Of a stretch of 32,391 nt of DNA, positions 10,477 through 24,946 are shown piece by piece; positions within the stretch are counted from its first letter, which is position 1; every line of letters starts with the position of its first letter. A model generated the notes under the pieces. That model was not told the DNA's origin. It searched no databases and was given only the letters and a program-made list of their open reading frames with translations. A program made the position numbers and the translations under genes. This DNA comes from Acidobacteriota bacterium. GTDB lineage: Bacteria > Actinomycetota > Acidimicrobiia > ATN3. The DNA is taken from the NCBI GenBank assembly GCA_003577105.1, contig QEUQ01000028.1:1-32391 (forward strand), read 5' to 3'.

Positions 10477-13400
10477 CTAAGCGGGTGTCTCCTGATTGAT
10501 GCCGGACGAAGGCGCGTCAATTGACGTTGCAGCGCCAAATCCGGCTGAGTCGGAGTACCAGCGCGTCTGACCGGACGGCGGAATGAAACGCACTCGGTAC
10601 TGCCATCCCGACGCGGAAGTCGCCGCTACCTTTACGGAGTAAGTTCCGTCTCCGGCGCTCACGGTGTTCTGCGGACTCGCGCAACCGCAGCTGGTATAGG
10701 CCGAGACAGTCGCGCCGGGGAGTGGCGAGCCCGACCGGGTTACCTCACCCGAAATCAGACCGGCACTGCGCAGCGAGAAATTCGCCACCGACGGGACCGT
10801 GACCGGAGTGGCTTCGGCGTATCCGGGAGCACCGTCAGACCAGATGTTCTCGTGCGTCAGCGGTCCCTTGACCAAGATCTTGTAGGTCTTCGCCGGGTCC
10901 AAATTGAACCGGTATCGCCCGAGCGCGTCGGTCTTGGTCCAGCCTGCAAAGGCTCCGGAAGATGCGTCATAGGCGTACGCATAGACCCCCGCAAGATCTG
11001 CGGCTGAGTCTGAATCCTTCACATAGCCGGTGACCTCGCCTGCCCCCGGAATGACCATGTCTATGCCTGTTGCCGGAGCGTCAACGCACTCAGATGAGGA
11101 GAAGTTGGTCTTCCCGTTGTACCAACGGGGCTGGATTCCTTGGCTCGGTGGAAGGAAGAGAACTGCATAGCCATCGCCGGAGGCACACGACGTCTCAGGA
11201 ACCTCGATCGACCACGCGCCTGCTGGATCTGTGATGCAGCACTGATACGCCACAAGTGTCCCGGTCGATTTGGAGTACACAGAGACCGACCCCCACATCC
11301 CGCCGGTGAAGGTTCCAGAGACTGTGACTAGCGGTAGCGCTGTGAGCTGAACTGAGGGGGAGACCCGAGTCCTATTTCCAGCGTCGTCAACCGCTCTGAC
11401 CGCCACCCACTTGCCCTCGAGAGCGCGTGGGAGGTTGAGGCTCTCAGTGCTGCCTGCTGCAGACGGGGATGGCAATGCTCCCCCGTAAACACTTGCCGAC
11501 GACCAGGTGGCGTCTGTTACCGGAGAATCGGCATAACGAACTTCATACGACTGGGCCGAACCGCAGCGTCCGTCATCTCCCGGGGCCACGAACGACACGC
11601 GCGTGCCTGAAGCTGTCGGTGCCGCCGCAACTTCAGTCAGCGCTCGCGGCAGGGTGGCATCTGTGGCCGAATTACCAGAGTTCGCAGGATCGTGCCCGTA
11701 GCGCGGCCATCCCGCACCACAGACAGTGCCTGCGGTATTCCACGCGTAGAGATAGCCCCGACGGGTCATGGCAATTGCCACCTGACTGCCGTCTCCTCTC
11801 CAGTCACCGACGGCCGGTGTAGCCATGTTCCACGACCCTGTGTACTTGCCCCACCCCGCCGGAACTGCTCCGCTGCCGTCAACTGCGCGCACGTCGTTTT
11901 CGCCCGAGGGCATCACCGCGTCAAGGTCGCCGTCTCCGTCAATGTCAGTAGCGATTGGCTGGCTCATGCTCTGCGAATCGTTGGTCGGGTGAGGAAAGCC
12001 GTCGAGCATCACTCCCCCCGACGTGCCATCTGCACCCGGTTGCGTGAGATCGACGCCGGCATACAGGAAGCTCGACGGGCTCGAATCGCCGTCATTAATC
12101 ATGTCAATAAGCTGGCCTGGCCCTGAGGCGGCGATGAGCATGTCGGGAACTCCGTCGCCATTGAGGTCCGAGAGTGCGAGCCCTCCTCCTCCACCTCCGT
12201 AGCCTGGTTCAGGCGATGCTGACCCGACACCGTTGCCACCACCAAAAACGGGCATGTCCTTGCCGTCGCCGTCGCGTCCGTAGTAGCTAATGCCACTAGC
12301 GTTGTAGAGCACCGGAAGGCCGGCTATGCCCTGTGCGGCAACTTCCGGCGTGCCGTTGGAATCAAGGTCGATAGCGACTGCTTGGGAGTTGATCCCGTTG
12401 ACCATGACCGGCGCAATCTCCTTGCTGAAGAGGGGAACCCTGACGGGCCAACCAGGAAGGAATACGTTCGCGTGCAGCGCGCTTCCAGAAGGCACGCCCG
12501 TCGAAGAAAGCCCCTCGGGGTGAATTGCAAAGAGCCGACCGTTTCCTCCGCCCAAAGGAGCAAACGCTGAGAAGTCGTATGCGGCCGGAATATTCAGCGC
12601 CTCGCCGTAGACCTCGTTCGAGCCGATCACAACCTCTGGCTTGCCATCGCCGGTGAGGTCGACGAGCGTAGGCGTGGTCATGATCTTGGTTCCTCTCGCC
12701 ACGCCGGAGCCCGCGACAAATGTCAATCGATGGTTTGTCGCGTTCACCGATGCCACCTTTGCCGGATCCCTCAGCAGTACCGGCCAGCCAGCAAGCTTCG
12801 ATCCGTCGGCATGCCACGCATACACATGCCTGTCTTGGGCGCCGGCCACGATCTCCTTGACGCCGTCGCCATCAAGGTCGCCGACGGCTGGATTGGCCGA
12901 GATCGCCCAATGGACGCGATTTGCGCTGTTTCGCGCAGCGGGGACCGAGTAGTTGGGCTCGGTTCTCACGGGGAATCCTGGCCTCAGCGAGCCGTCAGCT
13001 TGAAAGACATAGACACGCCCTTCGTAGTCTGCGACCACCACTTCGGGCTTGCCGTCATTGTCGAGATCCGAGAGCGCCGGGGCGCCGCGGGCAAGTGAGG
13101 CGCGAACAACCCCTGGCAAGGCCCCACTCACATGACCGGCAGATCCAGTTTGCAGCGGCGCGGGATTGATTGCCGCTGGCCATCCGGCAATCTCGGTGCC
13201 ATCGGGCCGGTAAGCGTGCAGCAACCCGCCACTGTCGCCAATGATCATTTCGTCACGGCCATCGCCATCAAGATCTGCAAAGCCCGGGCTGCTGTCGCCG
13301 CTGACTCCTAGTCGCTTGGGAAAACCAGGCAACAAGTCGGTGTCATCATGTATTGACACCTGCTTCTGGAATTCGCCCTTGTTGCCAAAGGTGTCAATGG

Positions 13401-15225
13401 CTCGCAACCGAAGGCGGATTGCGAACTTCTCTGGATCTCTGTGGTGCTCAGGGGTCGCGGCCGAGCCTGTGGGTGTGATCACCGCGGCGACGGCCGACAT
13501 GTCAAGGGTGCCAAGCACGCCGTTGACAGCTGTTGCCGACGATCCACTTGAGATCGGAGTCCATGTGTCGGCACCCGGCCAATCCGGCGGCTGAACTCCC
13601 GGCGCCCACTCCAATGCCCACGAGAAGCCAGGGGTCCTGTTGGCAGCGACTCGTCCGCTGATCTCCACATCCGCCGATGACGGCAAGACGTCAAACCAAA
13701 GAGGCGACGTGATTTCGACCTCAGGCGGAATCAGCGGTGCTGCTGTCATCGAATCCGAGACCAATTCGGCCATTCGCCTAGCGTTGGTGCGTCCGTATCC
13801 CGTGTGCTGATCCCAGCCTTCGACTGTGTGCCACTTCTCTGTCGGAAAGAACCCGATGGCGGGGGGCATCGCGAAATTGTTTGCGGGATCGCCGCCTCGC
13901 GGCGTCGAGAAGTCAATATCGTCTGCACCAGCTCTGAACAGCTGCCACAGCTCATTTGGTGACAATGCGAACGGCGCCGTGGAGCCGTCATCCCTGATGT
14001 AGTTGGAAAGCCGGCCCTGTGCGACCCGATTCTTCGCGACCGATAGCGTCAGAGCAGCAATACCAGAGTTGTTTCCGGTTGAACCCGACGAGCAGCTGGT
14101 AGTTGAGGTGCTCACATGAATCTTTCCCCCGCGATTTGAGCACCAATTTGAATACAGGTAGCCAGCCGGATTTCCTGGCGAGTCTCTCACTGCCCTGGAA
14201 ACCATCACGCGCTCGAGACCAGCTGGGAAGTTCTGGTGACCCGCCTCTTCGTTAGCAGAGGCCGCTATGACGGTCATCCCTTTGGAATGAGCATAGTCAG
14301 CGGCCTGCTGAGCGAAGTCCTGCACGGAGAAATGGCCCAGTGCGTTGGCGGCCACATCGGCTCCTGTGTCGGCTGCGTAAACGATCCCTCGGCCCCATGC
14401 GCCGGCTTCGATTACATAGGAGTCTCCAACGCGCACGGGAACAAACATGCACGATGGGCAGTTACCGACCCCGCTTCCGTCGCCCGCTTGGCCGGCAGCC
14501 TCATGGGCACGACCCTCGCCGTGACCAAATCCGACGTCATCGTATGGATTGTTGTCGTTCTCAAAGGCGTCCCACCCGGCAATGTCGTCAACGTAGCCAT
14601 TGCCGTCACTGTCAACTCCGTCAGACCACCCGGGGGTAAGGATCAAGTCCTCGGGATCGATCCTGCTGTTGCCGTTGCGATTGGTGACCCTCGTGTCTTC
14701 GCAGATCCATGGCGAAGTGATCTTCGAGCAGTAGTCATTGATGTTGAAGACCCCGTCGTAGTTCTTGTCGTAGGGATGCGCCGGGTCAATCGCCGGCGTA
14801 AGAGGCTGAGGCTCAGGGAGCTCACCTGGATTCAGCCGCACCTTGGGAATCAGGCTCGTGTACTGGCCGCTCGTTGAACGCCAGTTGATCCCGTCATCAA
14901 CAATCGCGACGGTCACGTCGGGGCGACCAGTAGTTATGCGCCATGCCCCCGTCACATCTGGCCCGATTACGCCGTGTAGCTCCTGCGGCGAACTGTCGAG
15001 TGCTGCGTTCCCTGACTGCGCGCCTGATTGCGCGATGTTGTTCGAGTAGTCAGATGGGTTCGTTGAACTGTAAAGATACTCTTGGAAATCGTAGGGGTTG
15101 CTTACAGCTGGAGGCTTAGCGGGCCACGGCTGGGAGGCGTTCGCCGGCTGGAGGATACCAAGTAGCAGCATCGCGATCGCCACGACGCCCCCCCTAGCTG
15201 GACCTCGCAGATACTTCCTCAACAC
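10477..15225 (-). CDS. Secreted S8 subtilase with eight FG-GAP-like repeats and C-terminal Ig-like domains
   Basis: About 1582 aa from a GTG at 15225 (GGGGA just upstream). This start gives a proper signal peptide: basic RKYLRGPAR, hydrophobic VVAIAMLLLGIL, and cleavage after ANA. The frame stays open to an ATG at 15318, which would bury the signal. The subtilisin domain is about 75-430, with D110 (VAIVDDG), H235 (GHGEGR), oxyanion N325 (ASANEEAG) and S387 (NNSGIAAL). The surroundings of His and Ser differ from the usual GHGTHVAG and GTSMAAP. About 645-1145 hold eight DxDxDG-type repeats (such as DLDGDGRDE, DLDNDGKPE, DLTGDGKPE), probably a calcium-binding beta-propeller. A fibronectin III-like domain and three carboxypeptidase-regulatory-like domains follow. 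There is no LPxTG-like anchor. The likely role is an extracellular protease or degradative enzyme. Confidence 0.88.
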   Translation of the reverse strand: MLRKYLRGPARGGVVAIAMLLLGILQPANASQPWPAKPPAVSNPYDFQEYLYSSTNPSDYSNNIAQSGAQSGNAALDSSPQELHGVIGPDVTGAWRITTGRPDVTVAIVDDGINWRSTSGQYTSLIPKVRLNPGELPEPQPLTPAIDPAHPYDKNYDGVFNINDYCSKITSPWICEDTRVTNRNGNSRIDPEDLILTPGWSDGVDSDGNGYVDDIAGWDAFENDNNPYDDVGFGHGEGRAHEAAGQAGDGSGVGNCPSCMFVPVRVGDSYVIEAGAWGRGIVYAADTGADVAANALGHFSVQDFAQQAADYAHSKGMTVIAASANEEAGHQNFPAGLERVMVSRAVRDSPGNPAGYLYSNWCSNRGGKIHVSTSTTSCSSGSTGNNSGIAALTLSVAKNRVAQGRLSNYIRDDGSTAPFALSPNELWQLFRAGADDIDFSTPRGGDPANNFAMPPAIGFFPTEKWHTVEGWDQHTGYGRTNARRMAELVSDSMTAAPLIPPEVEITSPLWFDVLPSSADVEISGRVAANRTPGFSWALEWAPGVQPPDWPGADTWTPISSGSSATAVNGVLGTLDMSAVAAVITPTGSAATPEHHRDPEKFAIRLRLRAIDTFGNKGEFQKQVSIHDDTDLLPGFPKRLGVSGDSSPGFADLDGDGRDEMIIGDSGGLLHAYRPDGTEIAGWPAAINPAPLQTGSAGHVSGALPGVVRASLARGAPALSDLDNDGKPEVVVADYEGRVYVFQADGSLRPGFPVRTEPNYSVPAARNSANRVHWAISANPAVGDLDGDGVKEIVAGAQDRHVYAWHADGSKLAGWPVLLRDPAKVASVNATNHRLTFVAGSGVARGTKIMTTPTLVDLTGDGKPEVVIGSNEVYGEALNIPAAYDFSAFAPLGGGNGRLFAIHPEGLSSTGVPSGSALHANVFLPGWPVRVPLFSKEIAPVMVNGINSQAVAIDLDSNGTPEVAAQGIAGLPVLYNASGISYYGRDGDGKDMPVFGGGNGVGSASPEPGYGGGGGGLALSDLNGDGVPDMLIAASGPGQLIDMINDGDSSPSSFLYAGVDLTQPGADGTSGGVMLDGFPHPTNDSQSMSQPIATDIDGDGDLDAVMPSGENDVRAVDGSGAVPAGWGKYTGSWNMATPAVGDWRGDGSQVAIAMTRRGYLYAWNTAGTVCGAGWPRYGHDPANSGNSATDATLPRALTEVAAAPTASGTRVSFVAPGDDGRCGSAQSYEVRYADSPVTDATWSSASVYGGALPSPSAAGSTESLNLPRALEGKWVAVRAVDDAGNRTRVSPSVQLTALPLVTVSGTFTGGMWGSVSVYSKSTGTLVAYQCCITDPAGAWSIEVPETSCASGDGYAVLFLPPSQGIQPRWYNGKTNFSSSECVDAPATGIDMVIPGAGEVTGYVKDSDSAADLAGVYAYAYDASSGAFAGWTKTDALGRYRFNLDPAKTYKILVKGPLTHENIWSDGAPGYAEATPVTVPSVANFSLRSAGLISGEVTRSGSPLPGATVSAYTSCGCASPQNTVSAGDGTYSVKVAATSASGWQYRVRFIPPSGQTRWYSDSAGFGAATSIDAPSSGINQETPA

Positions 15226-15320
15226 ATCCCCGGCTTTGCCCCGCGCAGAGTCCTTGCACGACGTTAGGCGCGCATCGTGATGGCGCCTGCACCACGTAAG
15301 TGACCATGATAGCCACATTC

Positions 15321-15366: not shown

Positions 15367-16269
15367 ATGAAATGCCTGAGAACCCCAGACAGCCGCTTTG
15401 CCAGTCTTCCCGGATATGACTTCAAACCAAACTACGTAGAGGTCGACGACACCGATGGAGGTCTCCTGCGCATCCACTACCTCGATGAAGGGCCGCCAGA
15501 TGCCAAGCCGGTTCTAATGCTCCATGGCGAGCCATCGTGGTCCTATCTCTATCGCAAGATGATTCCGATTTTCGTCGAGGCCGGACACCGTGCAATCGCG
15601 CCCGACCTTCCCGGATTCGGACGTTCCGACAAGCCAGCCTCGCGACGCGACTACACCTACGAACGCCACGTTGCATGGATGCGATCGTTCCTTGAGGCAC
15701 TCGACCTCACGAAGATCACGTTGGTCTGCCAAGACTGGGGAGGCCTCATCGGGTTGCGCCTCGCGGCCGAAAATGAAGCCCGCTTTGCTCGAATTGCGGC
15801 GGCAAATACTTTTCTGCCCACGGGCGATGCCGACCCCGGCCCTGCGTTCAAGGCGTGGCGCGAGTATTCGCAGAACGCACCAGATCTCAAGGTTGGCAAC
15901 ATCGTTGCCGGCGGATGTGCGACCCGCCCATCCGACGAAGTAATTGCCGCATATGACGCCCCCTTTCCCGATGACTCCTACAAGGAAGGGGCGCGGGAAT
16001 TCCCAGTCTTGGTGCCAGTTGATCCAGACGATCCAGCTGCCCCGGCCAATCGTGCCGCCTGGGAAGTCCTAGCCAAGTGGACGAAGCCCGTCTTGACTGT
16101 TTTTGGCGACAGCGATCCGATTACACGAGGCGCGGAGCGCGTGCTTCAGCAGGCGATCCCAGGCGCTTCAGGGCAACCCCACGCGACGATTGAGGGCGCG
16201 GGCCACTTCATTCAGGAGGACAAGGGTGAGGAACTGGCTGCCGCGATAGCCGATTGGATGCGCGGCTGA
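15367..16269 (+). CDS. Haloalkane dehalogenase (alpha/beta hydrolase, HLD-I/DhlA-like)
   Basis: 300 aa. It hydrolyses carbon-halogen bonds of haloalkanes to alcohol plus halide in the cytoplasm. Close similarity to the DhlA pattern is visible: HGEPSWSYLYRKMIP, nucleophile D123 with adjacent W124 (VCQDWGG), catalytic acid D250 (GDSDPITRG) and base H280 (GAGHFIQE). W124 is the first halide-stabilising Trp; W164 in the cap (FKAWREY) is a candidate for the second. The cap also has YDAPFPDDSYKEGAREFP, as in this subfamily. The ATG at 15367 is preceded by AAGGTG. The SCP2-type gene follows 103 bp later. The substrate cannot be read from sequence; many such enzymes in bacteria have unknown natural substrates. 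Confidence 0.93.
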   Translation: MKCLRTPDSRFASLPGYDFKPNYVEVDDTDGGLLRIHYLDEGPPDAKPVLMLHGEPSWSYLYRKMIPIFVEAGHRAIAPDLPGFGRSDKPASRRDYTYERHVAWMRSFLEALDLTKITLVCQDWGGLIGLRLAAENEARFARIAAANTFLPTGDADPGPAFKAWREYSQNAPDLKVGNIVAGGCATRPSDEVIAAYDAPFPDDSYKEGAREFPVLVPVDPDDPAAPANRAAWEVLAKWTKPVLTVFGDSDPITRGAERVLQQAIPGASGQPHATIEGAGHFIQEDKGEELAAAIADWMRG

Positions 16270-16338
16270 ACGGAACTTGAGCCCGGACCGCTTTACGCGC
16301 GCGGCCAAGAACAACTAGGGTTGCACATCCGTCACTGT

Positions 16339-16352
16339 GGACCGCAAGGTCC
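16339..16352 (+). other. Small GNRA-loop hairpin in the SCP2 gene leader
   Basis: GGACC, loop GCAA, GGTCC forms a perfect 5-bp stem with a GNRA-type tetraloop, 20 bp before the start codon and just before the AAGGAGATAG ribosome binding site of the SCP2-like gene. It may stabilise the leader. It is too small to call a riboswitch. Confidence 0.3.
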
Positions 16353-16372
16353 CGGGCACAAGGAGATAGAAA

Positions 16373-16792
16373 ATGGCAGATGATCCTCGCGCACAACTTG
16401 CCGAGATGGTCAAAGACAAGTCAGACGAAGAGATCGCAGCTGGCATAGAGGCAGGCGGCGGAGCCGACACTGTTCTCAGCCAGATCTTCGACGCGATGGT
16501 CGGCGCATTTGATGCCGACAAGGCGGCGGGGCAGGAAGCGGTCATCCAGTGGGACATCACCAATGGCGATGACACCCTCAACTACACCCTCGTCGTTGCA
16601 GACGGGAAGTGTGAGCTCAAGAAGGAGCCGGGCGACAACCCACGGGTCACCATGGAGATGTCACTCCCGAATTACCTGCGCCTGATCACTGGCAACCTTG
16701 ACGGCATGCAGGCGTTCATGAGCGGCCAGCTGAAGATCAGCGGCGACATGATGTTTGCCCAGGTCTTCCAGGGCTGGTTCAGCCAGGGCTGA
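16373..16792 (+). CDS. SCP2 sterol-binding domain protein
   Basis: 139 aa, essentially one SCP2 domain. Hallmarks are an N-terminal helix (ADTVLSQIFDAMVGAF), the strands AVIQWDITNGDDTLNYTLVV and CELKKEPGDNPRVTMEM, then SLPNYLRLITGNLDGMQAFMSGQLKISGDMMFAQVFQGWF at the C terminus. Such proteins bind lipids or sterol-like molecules in a hydrophobic tunnel, and in actinobacteria they occur near lipid and sterol catabolism genes. The ligand is unknown. The gene has a very strong ribosome binding site (AAGGAGATAG, 6 nt before the ATG) and is followed 20 bp later by a strong terminator, so it is probably well expressed and ends its transcription unit. Confidence 0.9.
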   Translation: MADDPRAQLAEMVKDKSDEEIAAGIEAGGGADTVLSQIFDAMVGAFDADKAAGQEAVIQWDITNGDDTLNYTLVVADGKCELKKEPGDNPRVTMEMSLPNYLRLITGNLDGMQAFMSGQLKISGDMMFAQVFQGWFSQG

Positions 16793-16811
16793 TTACCTGA
16801 TCTACAAATAG

Positions 16812-16847
16812 AAAGGGCGCCTACCCGCCTGGGTTGGGCGCCTTTTT
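16812..16847 (+). terminator. Rho-independent terminator after the SCP2-like gene
   Basis: A long GC-rich hairpin is formed by AAAGGGCGCCTACCC and GGGTTGGGCGCCTTT, with a GCCT loop and one- or two-base bulges, followed directly by a T-run (CCTTTTTCTG). It lies 20 bp after the SCP2-like stop codon and separates that unit from the coiled-coil gene. Confidence 0.85.
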
Positions 16848-16959
16848 CTGTTTAACACACGCTCTCAGGTTTTGCTCTTGTTTTACATGGTTTACGCATG
16901 ATACGGTACTAGACATACCTCCCCGTGATAAATGTACGATTTGTCCGAAGGGAGCTCTC

Positions 16960-17583
16960 TTGGCATCTGAAGCCGCTAGGCACAAGCTGCACACTGCGCT
17001 AGAGGGGTCAATTGGTGAAGCGAGCGCCGGGGCACTAATGCAAATGCTCCCGCCTTATGAATGGCATGAAATCGCCACAAAGGCCGATCTGGCCACGTTC
17101 AAGGACGTCATGGTTCTTCACTTCAAAGTGATGGAGCAACGATTTGACGCCAACGACCAACAGCATGCCGAATTCATGGGGCGGATCGGGTCCCTCGAAT
17201 CCGATGTGGCCGAGATCAAGACCGATATTGCCAGGCTGGACTCAAAGGTTGGCACACTCGGCGGGCGAGCTGATGCGCTGGACAAGCGGGTTGATGCGCT
17301 CGATTCCAAGGTCGATGGGGTCATAGAGCGGGTTGATGCGCTCGATTCCAAGGTCGACGGGGTCATAGAGCGGGTTGATGCGCTCGATTCCAAGGTCGAT
17401 GGGGTCATAGAGCGGGTTGATGCGCTGGACGCGAAAGTCAGCGATCTTGACGGCAAATTCAACGGCCTGCTGAGCTCAATCAACAATGACGTGGCTCACG
17501 CACTGCACCGGAATACTCTCGCCAACATCGGCATCATGATCGCGTTTCTCTCTCTTCTGGTGACCGCACTCAAGCTCGCCTAA
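16960..17583 (+). CDS. Tail-anchored coiled-coil protein of the actinobacterial 'LPPxxWxxxATKxDL' family
   Basis: 207 aa from a TTG at 16960 with AAGGGAG about 5 nt upstream; the frame is open further upstream but crosses AT-rich intergenic DNA. Residues 1-50 hold LEGSIGEASAGALMQMLPPYEWHEIATKADLATF, a block seen in many actinobacterial proteins of unknown function. Residues about 55-180 are a long heptad coiled coil whose middle is a 14-residue unit (RVDALDSKVDGVIE) repeated three times. The C terminus is one membrane helix (IGIMIAFLSLLVTALKL), so the coiled coil probably sits in the cytoplasm as a tail-anchored rod. No enzymatic motif is seen. It follows the terminator of the SCP2 unit; a weak promoter may lie around 16879-16906. 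Function unknown. Confidence 0.8.
   Translation: MASEAARHKLHTALEGSIGEASAGALMQMLPPYEWHEIATKADLATFKDVMVLHFKVMEQRFDANDQQHAEFMGRIGSLESDVAEIKTDIARLDSKVGTLGGRADALDKRVDALDSKVDGVIERVDALDSKVDGVIERVDALDSKVDGVIERVDALDAKVSDLDGKFNGLLSSINNDVAHALHRNTLANIGIMIAFLSLLVTALKLA
17287..17426 (+). repeat. Three 42-bp in-frame tandem repeats within the coiled-coil gene
   Basis: Copies start at 17287, 17329 and 17371, with 14 identical bases of a fourth copy at 17413. The three full copies differ by a single silent change (GAT/GAC) in copy 2. Each unit encodes two heptads. The near identity at the DNA level points to recent duplication or ongoing slippage. Confidence 0.95.
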
Positions 17584-17600
17584 TCAACGGAGACCCAGTC

Positions 17601-17651
17601 ATGCCGCGCCGCGGACGGCGTGGACTTCCAATCTATTTTCAGTTACTATGA
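17601..17651 (+). other. Mini-ORF with strong ribosome binding site overlapping the DinB-like start
   Basis: ATG at 17601, 9 nt after GGAG, opens a 16-codon frame (MPRRGRRGLPIYFQLL) that ends at TGA 17649-17651, inside the next gene. The DinB-like frame has only a GTG at 17620 without a ribosome binding site. This is either a coupling leader peptide, or the true DinB-like start is this ATG and a one-base insertion in the GC-rich 17603-17619 stretch separates it from its frame. Confidence 0.4.
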
Positions 17652-18258
17652 AACTAGATTGGCGAAAGGTCGGTGGAAGTTGACTGGCGCAGGCGCAGCT
17701 CTGTCATCCCTCAAGAGACGGATCGGGGCCATGCACTCACTCTGGCGCGAGGCTGGTGATTCTCAATCCCTCGACCATGTAAACCACTTCGAGCGCGACG
17801 GGGTGTTGCCAATTGCATTCAGCATGAACCACTGCGTGCGAATCGAAGATCAGACGGTTCAACAGCTCTTTAACGCGTCACCCCCTTTGTGGGTCGCAGG
17901 GTCGTGGGCTGAAAAAGTCGGCGTCACGGTCGATGCAGCCGGCAAGGAGCAGACAGTCGAGGAAATGCAGATTCTTAGATTCGGTGACTACCAAGCGTTC
18001 CTTCGATACATGAGTGAGGTCTTCGATGCGACCGAGACGTGGCTTGACTCACTGAGCCCTGCCGACCTCGAGACGATCTTGTTCGGCGGCGCGAAGCCCG
18101 ATGTGTTTTCGAAGACCTACTCCGCCAGGGTTGTCGGCGACGGTCCATACACGCTTCTTGATGGAATCGAGTGCTGGATCTTCCAACACGGAATTCGCCA
18201 TCTCGGCGAGATGGAACACGCGCGGGCCCTGGTCGGCCTCGGCGGACTCACGTCGTAG
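17620..18258 (+). CDS. DinB-like four-helix-bundle protein
   Basis: 212 aa in frame from a GTG at 17620. Three histidines fit the DinB-fold metal site: H71 (FSMNHCVRIED), and H190 and H194 (FQHGIRHLGEMEHA). The blocks around them match DinB_2/DinB-like proteins, many of which are thiol- or metal-dependent enzymes of unknown substrate in actinobacteria. The start is uncertain: the GTG lacks a ribosome binding site, while an ATG at 17601 with a good one is in another frame (see the mini-ORF entry). It lies 36 bp after the coiled-coil gene and 24 bp before the MBL hydrolase, so it may belong to the sulfatase operon or only precede it. Confidence 0.65.
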   Translation: MDFQSIFSYYETRLAKGRWKLTGAGAALSSLKRRIGAMHSLWREAGDSQSLDHVNHFERDGVLPIAFSMNHCVRIEDQTVQQLFNASPPLWVAGSWAEKVGVTVDAAGKEQTVEEMQILRFGDYQAFLRYMSEVFDATETWLDSLSPADLETILFGGAKPDVFSKTYSARVVGDGPYTLLDGIECWIFQHGIRHLGEMEHARALVGLGGLTS

Positions 18259-18282
18259 TCACGGCAGACGAAAGGGTCAATC

Positions 18283-19110
18283 GTGTTCAGCCTCATCCTT
18301 CTCGGAACGGGAAGCCCAATTCCCGATCCGAAGCGGGCTGGGCCCGCAATGCTTGTCAAGGCAGGCAATCTATCTATCGTCGTGGATGCGGGACGAGGGC
18401 TAATGATGCGCCTCGCGTCTGCAGGCATTCCAGCGCCAGCCGTGTCAGCACTCATGCTCACCCACCTTCACTCGGACCACACTCAAGACATCAGTGATCT
18501 ACTTACCACGCGCTGGGTACTTCCGGTAGATGCGCAACCTCTTGAGATCTTGGGGCCCTCCGGGACTGCCGAACTCCTTGAGCAGACGATCGAGACTATG
18601 ACCACCGACATTGCATACCGGATGGCCCACCACGACGACCTGATCGAGCCTCCCACCTTCAACGTGACAGAGGTTGGCCCTGGAGTAATTCTCGAACGCG
18701 ACGGCTTGGTTGTGAGATCAGCCCTGGTTGACCATGCGCCGGTTGATCCCGCGCTTGGCTTTCGCTTCGAGTACGAAGGGAAGGTGCTGGCCATAAGTGG
18801 CGATACGCGTCCGTGCGCGGGGCTGAGCGAATTGGCCGCAGGTGCAGACGTGTACGTTCAAAACGTAGTGAGGCGATCGCTGATTGAGCACAGCCCGATC
18901 CAACGCTTTCGCGACGTGCTCGATTACCACTCGAATTTGGAAGAGACGGGGGTTACGGCTTCACGGGCTGGCGTTTCAAGGGTCGTACTCAGCCACATCG
19001 TGCCGCCACCCGATGACAGCGCCGATACTGGAATCGTCGCTGAGGTGAGATCGTCGGGATTCGAAGGCGAAGTGATTGTCGGAAGCGACCTGTTGGAAAT
19101 CGCGATCTGA
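18283..19110 (+). CDS. MBL-fold hydrolase, RNase Z/arylsulfatase-like (ElaC type)
   Basis: 275 aa. It opens with FSLILLGTGSPIPDPKRAGP, the RNase Z-like start. The zinc motif is H61-L-H63-S-D65-H66, with further metal-site candidates in ISGDTRP (Asp) and LSHIVPP (His). No exosite arm of true tRNase Z is evident. In this branch the best studied alternatives are MBL-type arylsulfatases and lactonases; given two more sulfatase genes downstream, an arylsulfatase role is plausible but unproven. The GTG start at 18283 has AAAGGG upstream. Its stop overlaps the TetR start by 1 bp (TGATG), so it is the first clearly coupled gene of the run to 24946. Confidence 0.85.
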   Translation: MFSLILLGTGSPIPDPKRAGPAMLVKAGNLSIVVDAGRGLMMRLASAGIPAPAVSALMLTHLHSDHTQDISDLLTTRWVLPVDAQPLEILGPSGTAELLEQTIETMTTDIAYRMAHHDDLIEPPTFNVTEVGPGVILERDGLVVRSALVDHAPVDPALGFRFEYEGKVLAISGDTRPCAGLSELAAGADVYVQNVVRRSLIEHSPIQRFRDVLDYHSNLEETGVTASRAGVSRVVLSHIVPPPDDSADTGIVAEVRSSGFEGEVIVGSDLLEIAI

Positions 19111-19787
19111 TGACCAACTCCACCAAGACCCAAACTGCGAGACCAGAAGCATTGGCGAATCCGGCTTCGAGCCACATGGCGAGCGGGCGGAGTTCGGCTT
19201 CGATCGACGGTCGGGTTCGCCGGGGAGAGCGGAGCCGCGAGGCAATCGTTGGCGCAATGCTCGACCTGATCCGTGAGGGCGTGACGCGTCCATCCTCCAA
19301 TCAGATCGCTGACCGCGCCGGGGTGACTCAGCGAACGCTCTTCAACCACTTCGCCGATGTACCCACCCTTATGGGGGAGGTAGTGGCTGCGCAGGTCGAG
19401 TTTGTCAGACGCAATCTGCCAGAGCCTCCTGAATCTAGCCTCCCAATCCTTGCGCGGGCAGAACAGTTCTTCGGTGAGATCGCCGGCCTGCTCGACGCAA
19501 TCGCGCCGGTGCGAATCGCTGCCTACTCATTCCCAGTACGGATGGACGCAGTGGACGCCGGTGTCGAGAACGTTCGTTCGCTCCTGCGGGAAGCTATCGC
19601 TCAAACCTTCGCTCCCGAACTCGCCCGCCTATCGCACGCCGAGTTCGGCGAGGTACTTGACGAGCTTGAGGTCTTAGCGGATCCCGTCTCATGGCGGCTC
19701 CGCAGAGTCTTGCAGCAACATTCGTCACAAGCAGCAGCAATGCATGCTGCCCATTCGGCCTGCAAGATTGCCAAGCTGCGCTCGTGA
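19110..19787 (+). CDS. TetR-family transcriptional regulator
   Basis: 225 aa. The HTH lies at about 63-82: SSNQIADRAGVTQRTLFNHFADVPTLM, a standard TetR N-terminal domain, preceded by REAIVGAMLDLIREG (helix 1). The first 35 residues are a disordered Ser/Ala/Arg-rich extension. The C-terminal ligand domain is helical and not recognisable to a subfamily. It lies inside the operon, overlapping the MBL gene by 1 bp and the LLM gene by 4 bp, so it is probably an autoregulated local repressor whose ligand is the operon's substrate or product (inference). I did not find a convincing operator palindrome in the short upstream gaps. Confidence 0.9.
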   Translation: MTNSTKTQTARPEALANPASSHMASGRSSASIDGRVRRGERSREAIVGAMLDLIREGVTRPSSNQIADRAGVTQRTLFNHFADVPTLMGEVVAAQVEFVRRNLPEPPESSLPILARAEQFFGEIAGLLDAIAPVRIAAYSFPVRMDAVDAGVENVRSLLREAIAQTFAPELARLSHAEFGEVLDELEVLADPVSWRLRRVLQQHSSQAAAMHAAHSACKIAKLRS

Positions 19788-20833
19788 AGCCGAAGTCCGC
19801 CCAGTCCCCAGAATTCTGGCTCCTGTCATTTCCGATTCCGGGAATCGCGCCACGCCTCGGGACCTTGGCCGAGGAGGGCGGTCTCGACGGAATCGTCTTT
19901 GCGGACACCCAGAACCTCGCGGGTGATCCATACTCCGAGCTTTGTCTCGTCGCTCGATCGACGACGAGACTCAAACTGGGCACTGGCGTCACCAACCCGG
20001 TCACGCGCCACCCGGCGGTCACTGCATCTGCCATCGCAACTGTTCATGCTGAGTCGTCAGGGCGCGCAATCTTGGGGATCGGCAGAGGCGACTCATCCCT
20101 GGCGTACATCGGCATGAAGCCTGCAACGGTGGCCGCACTCGAGCGCTATGTGCAACGCGTGCAGACATACCTTGCGGGTGAGACCGTTGACCTGGATGGA
20201 TTCGAAAGCCGCAATCAGTGGATCTCCCTGACAGGTCTCCCCAAGATCCCGGTCGATATCGCCGCTACGGGGCCGAAGGTGATCGGAGTGGGAGCCCGTC
20301 TCGCGGAGCGAGTTACTTTCGCGGTTGGGGCTGACGCCGAGCGCATTTCCGCAAGTGTCGAGATCGCCAAGTCCGCCTCCAGCGAAGCGGGCAGGAGCGA
20401 TGATCAGCCAAGCCTAGGCGCATTTGTCAACGTCGGGGTCAATGATGACGCGGCGACTGCGCGTGACCTCATCAGAGGCGGACTCGGCTCGTTCGCTCAT
20501 TTCTCAGGAATGTCCGGAGCCGAGACCTCAAGAGTAAGTCCCAATGATCGAGCGATCTTCGAGGCCCTCGGAGCTGAATATGACATGGCGAACCACGGGA
20601 TGCGCTCGGCCAAACACGCCAAGTTCATCGACGACGCATTCGTGGATAGGTTTGGGGTTGCAGGTGACTCCGAATACTGCATCAGACGCCTCGGGGAGCT
20701 ACTGGATGCAGGAATCGAGCGCCTGGTCATAGTCGCGGGCTCACGCGACGCCAACCCAGGTGACTTCTTCAACTCAAATGCAAAGCTCATGCACGAGGTC
20801 GTCCCCGCACTGCGTGAGCAGTTCACGAAATGA
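19784..20833 (+). CDS. LLM-class flavin/F420-dependent oxidoreductase
   Basis: 349 aa from the GTG at 19784, which overlaps the TetR stop (GTGA). It has a luciferase-like TIM barrel: EFWLLSFPIPG (strand 1), GLDGIVFADTQNL (strand 2), RLKLGTGVTNPVTRHPAVTA (strand 4 region), AILGIGRGDSS (strand 5), and PVDIAATGPKVIGVGARLAERVTFAVG. The last resembles the xAxSGPxTxxLAGxxADG-like pattern of F420-dependent LLM enzymes. It could act as a monooxygenase or dehydrogenase, with FMN or F420 as the cofactor. In the sulfur-scavenging context an oxidative C-S or C-O cleavage is possible, as in SsuD-type enzymes of the same fold (inference). It is coupled downstream to the propeller gene through an ATGA overlap. 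Confidence 0.9.
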   Translation: MKPKSAQSPEFWLLSFPIPGIAPRLGTLAEEGGLDGIVFADTQNLAGDPYSELCLVARSTTRLKLGTGVTNPVTRHPAVTASAIATVHAESSGRAILGIGRGDSSLAYIGMKPATVAALERYVQRVQTYLAGETVDLDGFESRNQWISLTGLPKIPVDIAATGPKVIGVGARLAERVTFAVGADAERISASVEIAKSASSEAGRSDDQPSLGAFVNVGVNDDAATARDLIRGGLGSFAHFSGMSGAETSRVSPNDRAIFEALGAEYDMANHGMRSAKHAKFIDDAFVDRFGVAGDSEYCIRRLGELLDAGIERLVIVAGSRDANPGDFFNSNAKLMHEVVPALREQFTK

Positions 20834-22101
20834 TTCCGGGCTACTACGACAGTCCTTGGCCATGTGAGGACGGCGGCCCGAAGCGCCAGGCCACCGTTAG
20901 GGGACTGCCTTCTCTCGATGTCTCGAAGCAAACCGTCGTTGAGGTGAACTCCCGGGAGGCAGTTGCAGCAACGATGGTTCTCCTTCGCGACGAGGGCGAG
21001 GTCTTCCTTCACGGCCAAACCCTCGGGTCGTCCGTCACATCGTGGGTCGAGAAGATTGATCCGCAAACGCTCTCACCGACCCACAGATCACCAGACTTGG
21101 AGGCGGGACCGTTCTGGCCGGGCGGTGTACTCATCCATCAGAACGGCGATATCTACGTGACGTGTGGCCGGTGGTGCCACAGACTCGACCCCGAGTGCCA
21201 TGTCGTCACCTCGGTCGAGTTGCCGCGGGAGCGCCCCTACAACTCGCTTCTCGCGCTGCCTGATGGATCTCTGATCATGAAAGACCAAGTTCGCGACGGT
21301 TCCGGGCCATCACGACTTGTCGTTCTAGATCCTGATGGACTCGAAATGACCTGCGGCGAGGTTGACTGCCCGGAGGGAGTTGTGGCCCGCCTCTCAGCAG
21401 ACGGAGAAACGGTCTACGTCGTTGGAACTAACTCGGTCTTTCGCTACCGATGGAACCGCCATGCCCTCAGTCTCGAGCTCGACGATTTATGGCGCGTCGA
21501 GTACCTTACCCGCCCCGATCAATCGTACGGATGGGATCCGGTCATCGCCGGAGGATGCCTATGGTTCATGGACAACGGAGATCATCGCTTCAGTGGAACG
21601 ATGCGCGGCGCCGGGGTGGCTCAGGGCGCGGTCCATCTCTACCGCGCGCCAATTGAAGGTGGGCATGAAGGCGCCTTCGAGCAAGTTGCTGTTTCGGGAT
21701 TGCCTGCGGGATCGATCACCAACCCTCCCCTCTACGACGAGGACCGCGGCATTGCGATTGGATTCGACTCGGCAAACGGAACACTCGCTGCGTGGCGCCT
21801 CGTTGAGGGCGAATCGGCGGCGCGTGACGGCAAGAAGCTCGAGTCTTCGTGGGAGATGTCCCTCGCCACCGCGAGCCACATGCTTCTTTTCCCCGGATCG
21901 GGCGAGCTCGTAGTCAACGACCATAGTGATTCGGGTGATTCGGCGGTTGTAGTTGACATTGAGAGCGGCTCCGAACTGATGCGAGCCGAGACAACAAGTC
22001 CGATCCAGTCAGTCGTGTTCCCTGCACCGGGGTGGGACAGGGATTTCTACTACTGCTCATTTGCGCGCCTCGCGCGCGTCGTCGTTGGAGAGGTGAATTG
22101 A
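20830..22101 (+). CDS. Uncharacterised beta-propeller protein in the sulfatase operon
   Basis: 423 aa, no family recognised. Repeating strand-turn blocks such as GGVLIHQNGDIYVTCGRW, NSLLALPDGSLIMKD, VVARLSADGETVYVVGTNSVFRY and SHMLLFPGSGELVVNDH suggest a six- or seven-bladed propeller like SMP-30 or YncE-type proteins. There is no signal peptide or membrane helix, so it is probably cytoplasmic. Conserved-looking features are WPGG, the GWDPVIAGGCLWFMDNGDH segment and two C-x(5-6)-C-like spacings. The ATG at 20830 overlaps the LLM stop (ATGA), and its own stop overlaps the sulfatase start (TTGA), so production is tied to those enzymes. It could be a lactonase-like enzyme or a substrate-binding partner; I assign no function. 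Confidence 0.8.
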   Translation: MIPGYYDSPWPCEDGGPKRQATVRGLPSLDVSKQTVVEVNSREAVAATMVLLRDEGEVFLHGQTLGSSVTSWVEKIDPQTLSPTHRSPDLEAGPFWPGGVLIHQNGDIYVTCGRWCHRLDPECHVVTSVELPRERPYNSLLALPDGSLIMKDQVRDGSGPSRLVVLDPDGLEMTCGEVDCPEGVVARLSADGETVYVVGTNSVFRYRWNRHALSLELDDLWRVEYLTRPDQSYGWDPVIAGGCLWFMDNGDHRFSGTMRGAGVAQGAVHLYRAPIEGGHEGAFEQVAVSGLPAGSITNPPLYDEDRGIAIGFDSANGTLAAWRLVEGESAARDGKKLESSWEMSLATASHMLLFPGSGELVVNDHSDSGDSAVVVDIESGSELMRAETTSPIQSVVFPAPGWDRDFYYCSFARLARVVVGEVN

Positions 22102-23621
22102 ACGTCCTGCTGATAACAACAGACCAACAACGGGCTGACTCCATTGGCGCATACGGCAATTCGGTATGCCAGACCCCCAATCTCGATCGCCTCGCGTCTG
22201 AGGGAACGCGTTTCGACGCTTGCAGGACGCAGAACCCGTACTGCCAGCCTTCAAGGGCAACGATTCTCACGGGGCAGTACCCGTCGACTCACGGCGTCGT
22301 GTCCAACGGAGTTGATGCGCCAGACGATCTCGCAGAGCATTCTCTCGCGAAGCTGCTAGGTGAGGCCGGCTATACAACAGGCATCATCGGCAAGGCCCAC
22401 TTTGCCTCTACCTACCCGGTGCTTCCGACCGGGAAGATTGAATCGGTCGAAGGGTCAGCCTCTGTGCCAGAGGACTGGAACGGACCCTACTTCGGCTTCG
22501 ACCATGCTGAGCTGCTTCTGTTCGGTCACATGCTTCGAATCGCGCCCCTCATGGGCATGTGGAATTGGTGTTACGGCCCGCCACCATTTGGACTCCACTA
22601 CGCGAGATGGCTCTTCCGTGACGGCAAGGGAGCCGACAAGGTGCGGCTGATGCAACCGGAGGCCGCAGGGGCCACCTGGGACAAGACTCAGACTTGGCGG
22701 AATCAGCTGCCCGAGGAGGAGCATCCGACGACTTGGGTTGCCGACCGCGCAATCGAGTGGATCAAGAATTCGATGCGGTCTGGCAAGCCATTTTTCGGCT
22801 GGATCAGCTTCGCCGATCCTCACCACCCAATGGATGCTCCGCTCCCGTGGTGCGACATGTATGACCCAATGGACGTGCCACTCCCTGAGAAGCGTCCAGA
22901 CGAATTCGAGTCCAAGAACGCATTTCATCGGATGTGGGGGCAGGGTGCCCTTGAAGGCAGCGGCTTCGAGTGGGCAAATCCAGGCGGAGCAAACCTGAGC
23001 GACGCACAGCTTGCGAAGATGATTGCCGGCTACTACGGCATGGTCAGCCAGCTAGACAGTGCGATCGGCCGGATCATGTCAACGCTAGATGAGCTCGGCA
23101 TCGCCGAAGGTACCCTCGTCGTAATGACCTCAGATCACGGCGAGTTCCTCGGCGATCACCAAATGCTCTTCAAGGGCCCGTTGCACTACGAAGGTCTGCT
23201 TCGGGTACCACTGATCGTAAGGGGCCCTGGATTCCGGGCCAACGAGGTCAACGACGAGCCCGTAGGCACGATCGACCTCGTGCCAACCATCTTGGACTCA
23301 GTCGGCCAAGCGATCCCAGACGATGTGGAGGGCACCCGTCTGCTCAGCGGAGACCGAGAGCATGTTCTCACTGAGAACAATCACAAAATGGTCTTTGAAC
23401 TGCCACTTCGCACGATCACGACACATCGCTACAAACTCACGAGAACACTCATGAACGACGACATCGGTGAGCTCTTCGACCTTGAAGACGATCCGGGGGA
23501 GTTCGTCAATCGCTGGTCCGACCCCGCGTCTGCTTCGCTCAAGAGCGACTTGCTGGCGACCCTTGACGACGTAATGAATCACGACGTCCGGGAAGAGCCA
23601 ATGGTCGGTGTTGTCGCGTAG
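22098..23621 (+). CDS. Type I (formylglycine) sulfatase
   Basis: 507 aa from the TTG at 22098, with GGAGAGG about 4 nt upstream; an upstream ATG at 22032 lies inside the propeller gene and is rejected because the protein should begin NVLLITTDQQ. The active-site motif is C49-Q-P-S-R53 (YCQPSRATILTGQYP), and the Cys becomes formylglycine. Metal ligands include D9 and D10-equivalents in TTDQQRAD, and D346-H347 (TSDHGEFLGDH). It resembles cytoplasmic choline-sulfatase and phosphonate-monoester-hydrolase-like members, without a signal peptide. It probably hydrolyses a sulfate ester taken into the cell. It overlaps the propeller gene by 4 bp and precedes the alkylsulfatase-like gene by 44 bp. Confidence 0.93.
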   Translation: MNVLLITTDQQRADSIGAYGNSVCQTPNLDRLASEGTRFDACRTQNPYCQPSRATILTGQYPSTHGVVSNGVDAPDDLAEHSLAKLLGEAGYTTGIIGKAHFASTYPVLPTGKIESVEGSASVPEDWNGPYFGFDHAELLLFGHMLRIAPLMGMWNWCYGPPPFGLHYARWLFRDGKGADKVRLMQPEAAGATWDKTQTWRNQLPEEEHPTTWVADRAIEWIKNSMRSGKPFFGWISFADPHHPMDAPLPWCDMYDPMDVPLPEKRPDEFESKNAFHRMWGQGALEGSGFEWANPGGANLSDAQLAKMIAGYYGMVSQLDSAIGRIMSTLDELGIAEGTLVVMTSDHGEFLGDHQMLFKGPLHYEGLLRVPLIVRGPGFRANEVNDEPVGTIDLVPTILDSVGQAIPDDVEGTRLLSGDREHVLTENNHKMVFELPLRTITTHRYKLTRTLMNDDIGELFDLEDDPGEFVNRWSDPASASLKSDLLATLDDVMNHDVREEPMVGVVA

Positions 23622-23665
23622 GCTTGGCGGCACGCTCGCCGGCCTCACGTCAAGAGGAGCTGAAA

Positions 23666-24946
23666 GTGCCCATCCCAATAACTGAACTTGCCGAGAAGCT
23701 CATGACCGGAGAGGTCACGGTGGAGGAGCAAAACCCGTTCTTCCCCCCGGGTGATTTCGCCGAGGTTGCCGACGGGATCGGCTTCGTGGCCGCCATGGCA
23801 AATTCATCGGTCTTCAAGACAGATGACGGGCTCGTAATGGTCGACACCGGCAGTCCCTTCAGCGCCAGGGCGATCCACGGCAAGGTCCGCTCCTGGGTCG
23901 GCGACTCGGTGCGGCTCGACACGGCAATCTTCTCCCACGGTCACATCGATCACGTCTTCGGGGTCGGCCCGTTCGAGGAAGATGCCGAGAAGTCGGGATG
24001 GGCGACGCCCAAGGTAGTAGCGCATGAAGCAATGCCCGCCAGATTCGACAGGTACAAGCTCACTGCTGGGTGGAACGGCGCAATCAACCGGCGCCAGTTC
24101 TCCGTGCCAGGTCTTGAGTGGCCCACCGAGTACCGCTACCCGGACGAGACCTATCGCGACACCCACACCGTCGAGGTGGGCGGGATCGAGTTCGAGCTCC
24201 ACCATTGCCGTGGCGAGACCGATGACCACACCTGGACCTGGGTGCCCTCGCGCAAGGCGCTCTGCACGGGAGACCTGATCATCTGGTGCTCCCCCAATGC
24301 GGGCAACCCCCAGAAAGTTCAGCGCTATCCGCGCGAATGGGCGATCGGACTTAGAGAGATGGCCGCTCTTGAACCAGAGATGCTCCTCCCTGGCCACGGC
24401 ATGCCGGTGTTCGGGGCTGAGCACTGCCAGGTGATCCTTCTTGACACCGCCGAGCTGCTTGAGTTCATCCATGACGAAACCGTCTCGCTCATGAATGAGG
24501 GGGCGCGCCTCGATGAGATCATCCACTCGGTCAAGGTTCCGGAAGCTCTAATCGAGAAGCCGTATCTGAGGCCGGTCTATGACGACCCCGAGTTCATTGT
24601 CCGCAATGTCTACCGCCTCTATGGAGGCTGGTACGACGGCAATCCCGCGAACCTCAAACCCGCTCCAGACGCGGCGGTAGCGGCTGAGGTGGCATTGCTT
24701 GCAGGGGGCGTCGCTGCCCTGATTGACAGAGCGCTCGCCCTTGCGGACCAGGGCGAGCTTCGCCTCGCCGGCCACCTTGCTGAGATGGCGACACTGGCAG
24801 AGCCCGAGAACCGAGATGCCCACGCTGCCCGCGCATCCGTCAATGCCAAGCGAGTGGCCCATGAGACGGCTCTCATGTCAAAAGGGGTGTTTGGCGCGGC
24901 CTCCAGGGAGTCAGATGCCCGGGCCAGAGAGCTCGGCGAGGACTAA
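23666..24946 (+). CDS. MBL-fold alkylsulfatase-like protein with dimerisation domain
   Basis: 426 aa from the GTG at 23666, with AGAGGAG 6 nt upstream; an earlier in-frame start at 23624 has no ribosome binding site. The metallo-beta-lactamase domain (about 30-270) carries H91-G-H93-I-D95-H96, then HHCRGETDDHTW, CTGDLIIW and LPGHGMPVFG. The following segment with YRLYGGWYDGNPANLKPAP and KRVAHETALMSKGVFGAASRESDA is the SdsA1/BDS1-type dimerisation region. Those enzymes release sulfate from long-chain alkyl sulfates and have an extra C-terminal SCP2-like domain (about 650 aa in all). Here the protein ends after the dimerisation region, so substrate capture may differ. It is the last gene of the operon and converges with pabA at 8 bp. 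Confidence 0.88.
   Translation: MPIPITELAEKLMTGEVTVEEQNPFFPPGDFAEVADGIGFVAAMANSSVFKTDDGLVMVDTGSPFSARAIHGKVRSWVGDSVRLDTAIFSHGHIDHVFGVGPFEEDAEKSGWATPKVVAHEAMPARFDRYKLTAGWNGAINRRQFSVPGLEWPTEYRYPDETYRDTHTVEVGGIEFELHHCRGETDDHTWTWVPSRKALCTGDLIIWCSPNAGNPQKVQRYPREWAIGLREMAALEPEMLLPGHGMPVFGAEHCQVILLDTAELLEFIHDETVSLMNEGARLDEIIHSVKVPEALIEKPYLRPVYDDPEFIVRNVYRLYGGWYDGNPANLKPAPDAAVAAEVALLAGGVAALIDRALALADQGELRLAGHLAEMATLAEPENRDAHAARASVNAKRVAHETALMSKGVFGAASRESDARARELGED

Follow-up and report, generated by a model that had tools for sequence, protein, structure and literature searches.

The window, i.e., the whole stretch of DNA analyzed here (32,391 nucleotides), is one entire contig of a 2.87-Mb draft genome that comprises 104 contigs and is 95% complete. 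As originally predicted, six genes lie in one direction between positions 18283 and 24946, and the overlaps of 1, 4, 4 and 4 bp followed by a 44-bp gap were confirmed by reading the sequence. The first two genes share a single base at position 19110. The third starts with GTG and overlaps its predecessor by 4 bp (GTGA), the propeller gene overlaps the third by 4 bp (ATGA), and the sulfatase gene at 22098-23621 has a TTG start within a 4-bp TTGA overlap with the propeller gene. The last gene, at 23666-24946, starts with GTG behind the 44-bp gap. Comparison with Pfam and NCBIfam profiles upheld the domain assignments of the original prediction. Its boundaries, on the other hand, were drawn too narrowly, because four further co-directed genes precede the six. 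The run starts at 15367 with a haloalkane dehalogenase gene, which is followed by genes for an SCP2/Alkyl_sulf_C protein, a coiled-coil ORF and a DinB-fold protein. The dehalogenase gene at 15367-16269 had been overlooked. The features are:

15367..16269, + strand: haloalkane dehalogenase (HLD) of subfamily I type (NF002043, PDB matches, catalytic pentad)
16373..16792, + strand: stand-alone SCP2/Alkyl_sulf_C lipid-binding domain protein (SCP2 71.2 bits; Alkyl_sulf_C 35.7 bits, cut-off 27)
16826..16840, + strand: terminator-like hairpin, weak (8 such sites detected, 7.3 expected by chance)
16834..17583, + strand: coiled-coil ORF with internal repeats (coiled-coil-type Pfam matches only; TTG start uncertain)
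17620..18258, + strand: DinB-fold protein (DinB_2 27.9 bits, cut-off 24.8), distantly like mycothiol S-transferase
18283..19110, + strand: MBL1, RNase Z/ElaC-like hydrolase of metallo-beta-lactamase (MBL) fold (Lactamase_B_2, HxHxDH)
19110..19787, + strand: TetR-family regulator (Pfam TetR weak, 21.9 bits, cut-off 24)
19784..20833, + strand: LLM (luciferase-like, F420/FMN) oxidoreductase (PF00296 Bac_luciferase, 161 bits)
20830..22101, + strand: PROP, uncharacterized beta-propeller (under every Pfam/NCBIfam cut-off)
22098..23621, + strand: SULF, formylglycine-type sulfatase, PYCQPSRATILTGQYPSTHG (PF00884, 173.8 bits; motif)
23666..24946, + strand: SDS, SdsA1-like MBL alkylsulfatase (Lactamase_B and Alkyl_sulf_dimr, 118.5 bits)

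The hairpin may separate 15367-16792 from the remainder of the run. It is doubtful that the coiled-coil ORF belongs to the cluster. This ORF, situated between the SCP2 and DinB genes, contains near-identical internal repeats (VDALDSKVDGVIER), and a homologue is found near one further propeller (locus L071). The DinB-fold protein reaches 38.9 bits with the mycothiol transferase profile NF047843, under the cut-off of 170. Downstream, the cluster is met by a convergent glutamine amidotransferase gene. Upstream and divergent from the HLD gene, positions 10480-15318 on the minus strand encode a 1613-aa FG-GAP-repeat protein with CarboxypepD_reg domains and a weak match to a lambda-carrageenase propeller. 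Three PF00884 proteins are encoded in the whole genome and two of them in the window; the second sulfatase-family protein on the contig (4641-6170, + strand) has CMPAR in place of CxPSR.

Enzymes encoded in the gene run

SULF matches PF00884 with the score listed above and carries the C-x-P-S-R formylglycine motif (PYCQPSRATILTG). It shares fold and motif with S1 formylglycine sulfatases and phosphonate monoester hydrolases such as 2vqr and the choline sulfatase 7oz8, but is distant from these (E about 1e-50) and, together with orthologues of 56-66% identity in seven genomes of the class, constitutes a subfamily of its own. The cysteine of such sulfatases must be converted to formylglycine. 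A radical-SAM maturase (anSME) is encoded elsewhere in the genome, on contig C101, with 476 bits for TIGR03942 (cut-off 349) and the motif CNLACTYC. FGE was rejected as the SULF maturase, as the sole FGE-domain match lacks the cysteine at the expected site. The matching FGE-sulfatase domain (genome G000, contig C14:15175-16149, L106) resides inside a large multi-domain protein with an open frame of 1142 aa.

The HLD is recognized by NCBIfam model NF002043 with 489.6 bits (cut-off 265), and its best PDB matches are all haloalkane dehalogenases (6f9o, 4mj3 and 5esr with 460, 425 and 366 bits). It agrees with these over the full length and in the complete catalytic pentad D-W-W-D-H, i.e., the aspartate nucleophile, two halide-binding tryptophans, the acidic aspartate and the histidine base, and differs from them in its linkage to a sulfatase.

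MBL1 possesses the HxHxDH motif, and its nearest solved structure is 8gyg, annotated as 'Arysulfatase' (E=2e-19). A function as a true RNase Z/ElaC was rejected on the basis of NF000806 (297.7 bits, cut-off 363) and TIGR02651 (103.8 bits, cut-off 293). Within the PDB, the LLM protein is closest to the F420-dependent Mer (8qpm). SDS combines an MBL domain bearing HxHxDH with Alkyl_sulf_dimr, the architecture of the alkylsulfatases SdsA1 and Pisa1 (2cfu, 2yhe), and its nearest PDB entry is the sec-alkyl sulfatase 2yhe (E=8e-28). Unlike those enzymes, it has no SCP2-like (Alkyl_sulf_C) domain at the C-terminus of its chain; the domain is encoded by the separate gene at 16373-16792, 7 kb upstream.

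A propeller family and the genes around it

At a threshold of E≤1e-20, 79 of the 395 genomes of the window's class encode a PROP homologue, as do three genomes of other classes within a phylum-wide sample. The window's class is probably Acidimicrobiia, judging by gene content and by the very small genomes that it includes. Homologues are also present in Burkholderiales MAGs, several of which bear freshwater-type titles. No relatives were detected in the plasmid collection searched, no Pfam or NCBIfam family scored above cut-off, and profile searches found no solved relative in the PDB. The nearest approach was Pfam SGL with 17.6 bits against a gathering score of 26.3 (E=0.003); SMP-30/gluconolactonase and PQQ enzymes were rejected as identities since no profile exceeded its cut-off. 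An AlphaFold2 model built from five sequences is a beta-propeller (pLDDT 70.7, pTM 0.76). Foldseek returned generic propellers only, with TM scores normalized by query of at most 0.59 among the matches listed, and the fold therefore does not disclose a function. Across 36 diverse members, about 50 columns show no or hardly any variation, including E13, R19, E74, D77, H103, H117, N138, K151, E182, R187, Y225, D236, D248, D313, S314 and R385. This exceeds what a plain scaffold would need, and PROP is thus likely to possess an active or binding site.

For 79 propellers, surrounding sequence of up to about 20 kb was inspected. Among the 70 loci with enough upstream sequence, 29, belonging to 12 of 24 families, have a sulfatase gene directly upstream of PROP (same strand, gap below 300 bp). 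In 652 kb of flanks at 3-9 kb distance only eight sulfatases were counted, from which about 0.3 would be expected in the upstream slot, such that the observed frequency is roughly 100 times the distal background. A sulfatase directly downstream of PROP on the same strand, as in the window, was seen at this locus only. At least three kinds of sulfatase fill the slot. Those of type A measure about 520 aa and carry VVCMPSRST, those of type B measure about 755 aa and carry LCSPTRA, and Burkholderiales contribute a type with SCSPTR(A/S). Wherever the N-terminus is present, nearly all have a modifiable cysteine motif (CxPSR or CxPTR). The original prediction regarded propeller homologues scattered without sulfatases as evidence against it, and in part this is the situation encountered: 28 of 54 well-flanked loci lack a sulfatase at a distance of up to 5 kb. 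The link between PROP and sulfatases is strong but not obligatory.

Further recurrent neighbours of PROP are genes for TetR regulators, SRPBCC proteins, DinB-fold proteins, DUF2855 proteins, MBL1 and HLD. In Burkholderiales the genes are arranged as FA_hydroxylase, DsbA-like, sulfatase, PROP, MBL1, HLD and GST. FA_hydroxylase and DsbA-like genes stand upstream of the sulfatase gene in clusters L002, L003 and L005, and DUF1254/DUF1214 genes occur in L002. The DUF2855 genes are repeatedly located between a DinB and a TetR gene next to the sulfatase-PROP pair (L062, L073, L085, L035).

Of the gene set proposed originally, the sulfatase, the TetR regulator and the RNase Z-like MBL1 thus recur around the propeller, the latter two also with sulfatases and TetR near HLD as well. 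The LLM and SdsA1-like genes do not. Only 11 of 247 genomes encode a close LLM homologue, and the seven loci anchored on LLM share nothing with the set. Homologues of SDS are found in 105 of 247 genomes, and the gene adjoins PROP in none of the other propeller loci; conversely, 24 SDS loci (55-65% identity) contain neither PROP nor a formylglycine sulfatase, and HLD is found in two of them, including that of the closest SDS homologue. Following these anchored surveys, LLM and SDS were rejected as conserved members, and their genes are most readily understood as having been added locally.

The absence of links between these two genes and the others elsewhere, along with the sulfatase-free half of the PROP loci, would suit a chance aggregate of catabolic genes that are common in the class and came under one promoter without a shared pathway. 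We consider this quite improbable, as pairs of PROP and sulfatase, HLD and sulfatase, and MBL1 and HLD are repeatedly encountered in many families as well as in Burkholderiales. The scheme first proposed, in which the six genes degrade a multiply sulfated, non-halogenated compound step by step, deserves even less credit: two sulfatase chemistries do occur in one coupled set, but conservation does not extend to the LLM and SdsA1-like genes, and the conserved HLD lies outside the six.

Linkage of haloalkane dehalogenases to sulfatases

HLD with a full pentad is located near PROP in the window and at 11-12 other loci. Within the class, these other loci belong to families f4, f5, f12, f21, f22 and f47; the remainder are from Burkholderiales. 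All close HLD homologues near propellers retain the pentad, and family f1 is represented among them as well. HLD orthologues adjoin genes for PROP, MBL1, TetR and several sulfatase types. The association extends to loci devoid of PROP. Within the subfamily of the window's sulfatase, HLD adjoins the sulfatase gene in five of seven such loci (L120-L124; sulfatases 62-65% and HLDs 63-64% identical to those of the window), and three of 20 PROP-free type-A sulfatases reside in the order TetR-(MBL1)-HLD-sulfatase (L201, L207, L209). HLD itself never served as an anchor. Loci anchored on other genes, 2.5 Mb in total, contain 24 HLD genes, and for 20 of these a sulfatase lies no more than 6 kb away. 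Because many of the loci had been fetched for a sulfatase or PROP, this ratio overstates the link and is partly built in. A description of a genomic linkage between HLD and sulfatases was not found in the literature searched.

Several observations count against the interpretation we favor below: the PROP loci without sulfatases, the low numbers of HLD genes in loci anchored on SDS (2 of 24), MBL1 (1 of 22) and LLM (0 of 7), the plasmid-borne HLD homologues, none of which lies beside a sulfatase in three plasmid neighbourhoods, and the possible split of the run by a terminator. On plasmid pMSHV of Sphingobium herbicidovorans (L152), a 54% identical HLD homologue directly follows a sulfotransferase gene rather than a sulfatase gene.

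HLD, MBL1, TetR, sulfatase and PROP nevertheless recur in varying subsets across unrelated bacteria. We thus state that a recurrent catabolic module is real, with a membership differing from that listed at first. Its constant chemical theme is the sulfatase together with the HLD, and it is most likely that both groups, sulfate and halogen, are removed from one substrate. In view of the HLD, the multiply modified sulfated compound proposed originally would rather be a halogenated sulfate ester.

In principle, the same genes could serve general scavenging of sulfate esters (steroid, aryl or alkyl sulfates), the HLD homologue being an ordinary hydrolase whose substrate is a non-halogenated intermediate. 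Unrelated sulfatase types in the same slot, the arylsulfatase as nearest structure to MBL1, and neighbours suggesting a lipid or steroid substrate (SCP2, SRPBCC (Polyketide_cyc2), SDR, acyl-CoA dehydrogenase and enoyl-CoA hydratase) are all consistent with this possibility. Yet the pentad, including both halide-binding tryptophans, is retained in every linked HLD homologue of at least 40% identity, and we rate this alternative as rather unlikely.

A candidate pathway for halogenated sulfate esters

We favor the interpretation, to which we assign a probability of about 0.5, that the genes at 15367-24946 form a catabolic cluster under TetR control, directed at an organic molecule with one or more sulfate esters and carbon-bound halogen. 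SULF, matured by the anSME encoded elsewhere, would remove sulfate, assisted in this genome by SDS, and HLD would exchange halogen for hydroxyl by means of its aspartate nucleophile. MBL1 would hydrolyze a further ester-type bond. The DinB-fold protein, or GST in the Burkholderiales version, may transfer thiols to electrophilic or residual halogenated intermediates; the presence of either protein fits the handling of reactive intermediates by thiols. The SCP2-type protein may hold an amphiphilic chain; an amphiphilic substrate would agree with the presence of SCP2 and SRPBCC proteins. The LLM enzyme would represent a locally recruited oxidation step and PROP an undiscovered enzyme or substrate-binding partner of the sulfatase. 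TetR would derepress the set when substrate or product is present.

Among the closest known systems is the SLF alkyl-sulfate operon on Psychrobacter plasmid pP62BP1 (PMC10779009), likewise a compact regulated operon around an alkyl sulfatase. SLF comprises an aldehyde oxidoreductase, an alcohol dehydrogenase, an acyl-CoA synthetase and an AraC-type regulator, and neither a propeller nor an HLD is described for it (PMC10779009). The cluster in the window instead has TetR, HLD, an RNase Z-like MBL enzyme and the propeller, and SLF-like genes for alcohol/aldehyde oxidation and acyl-CoA ligation beside the sulfatase are absent from 15367-24946.

Chlorosulfolipids are polychlorinated alkyl sulfates of freshwater chrysophyte algae. 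They were discovered in two such algae, Ochromonas danica and Poterioochromonas malhamensis, and can bear as many as 11 chlorines and two sulfates (PMC13413282). That these compounds or close relatives are the substrate of the cluster is speculation, and we regard it as unlikely. A paper on bacterial breakdown of chlorosulfolipids was not found in the literature searched and, as far as this literature shows, the cluster would, if the idea holds true, constitute the first bacterial route for them. Chlorosulfolipids would then be a natural substrate for haloalkane dehalogenases, and PROP would be a new enzyme or binding family of the pathway. The biological role of haloalkane dehalogenases has been called unclear or poorly understood (PMC10503415, PMC10619424), and the cluster offers a testable proposal in this regard. 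A propeller family that is without a Pfam entry and yet present in a fifth of the class genomes sampled is now given a functional context, and the tie between HLD and sulfatases, seen both in the window's class and in Burkholderiales MAGs of freshwater type, points to a concrete and assayable class of substrates, halogenated sulfate esters.
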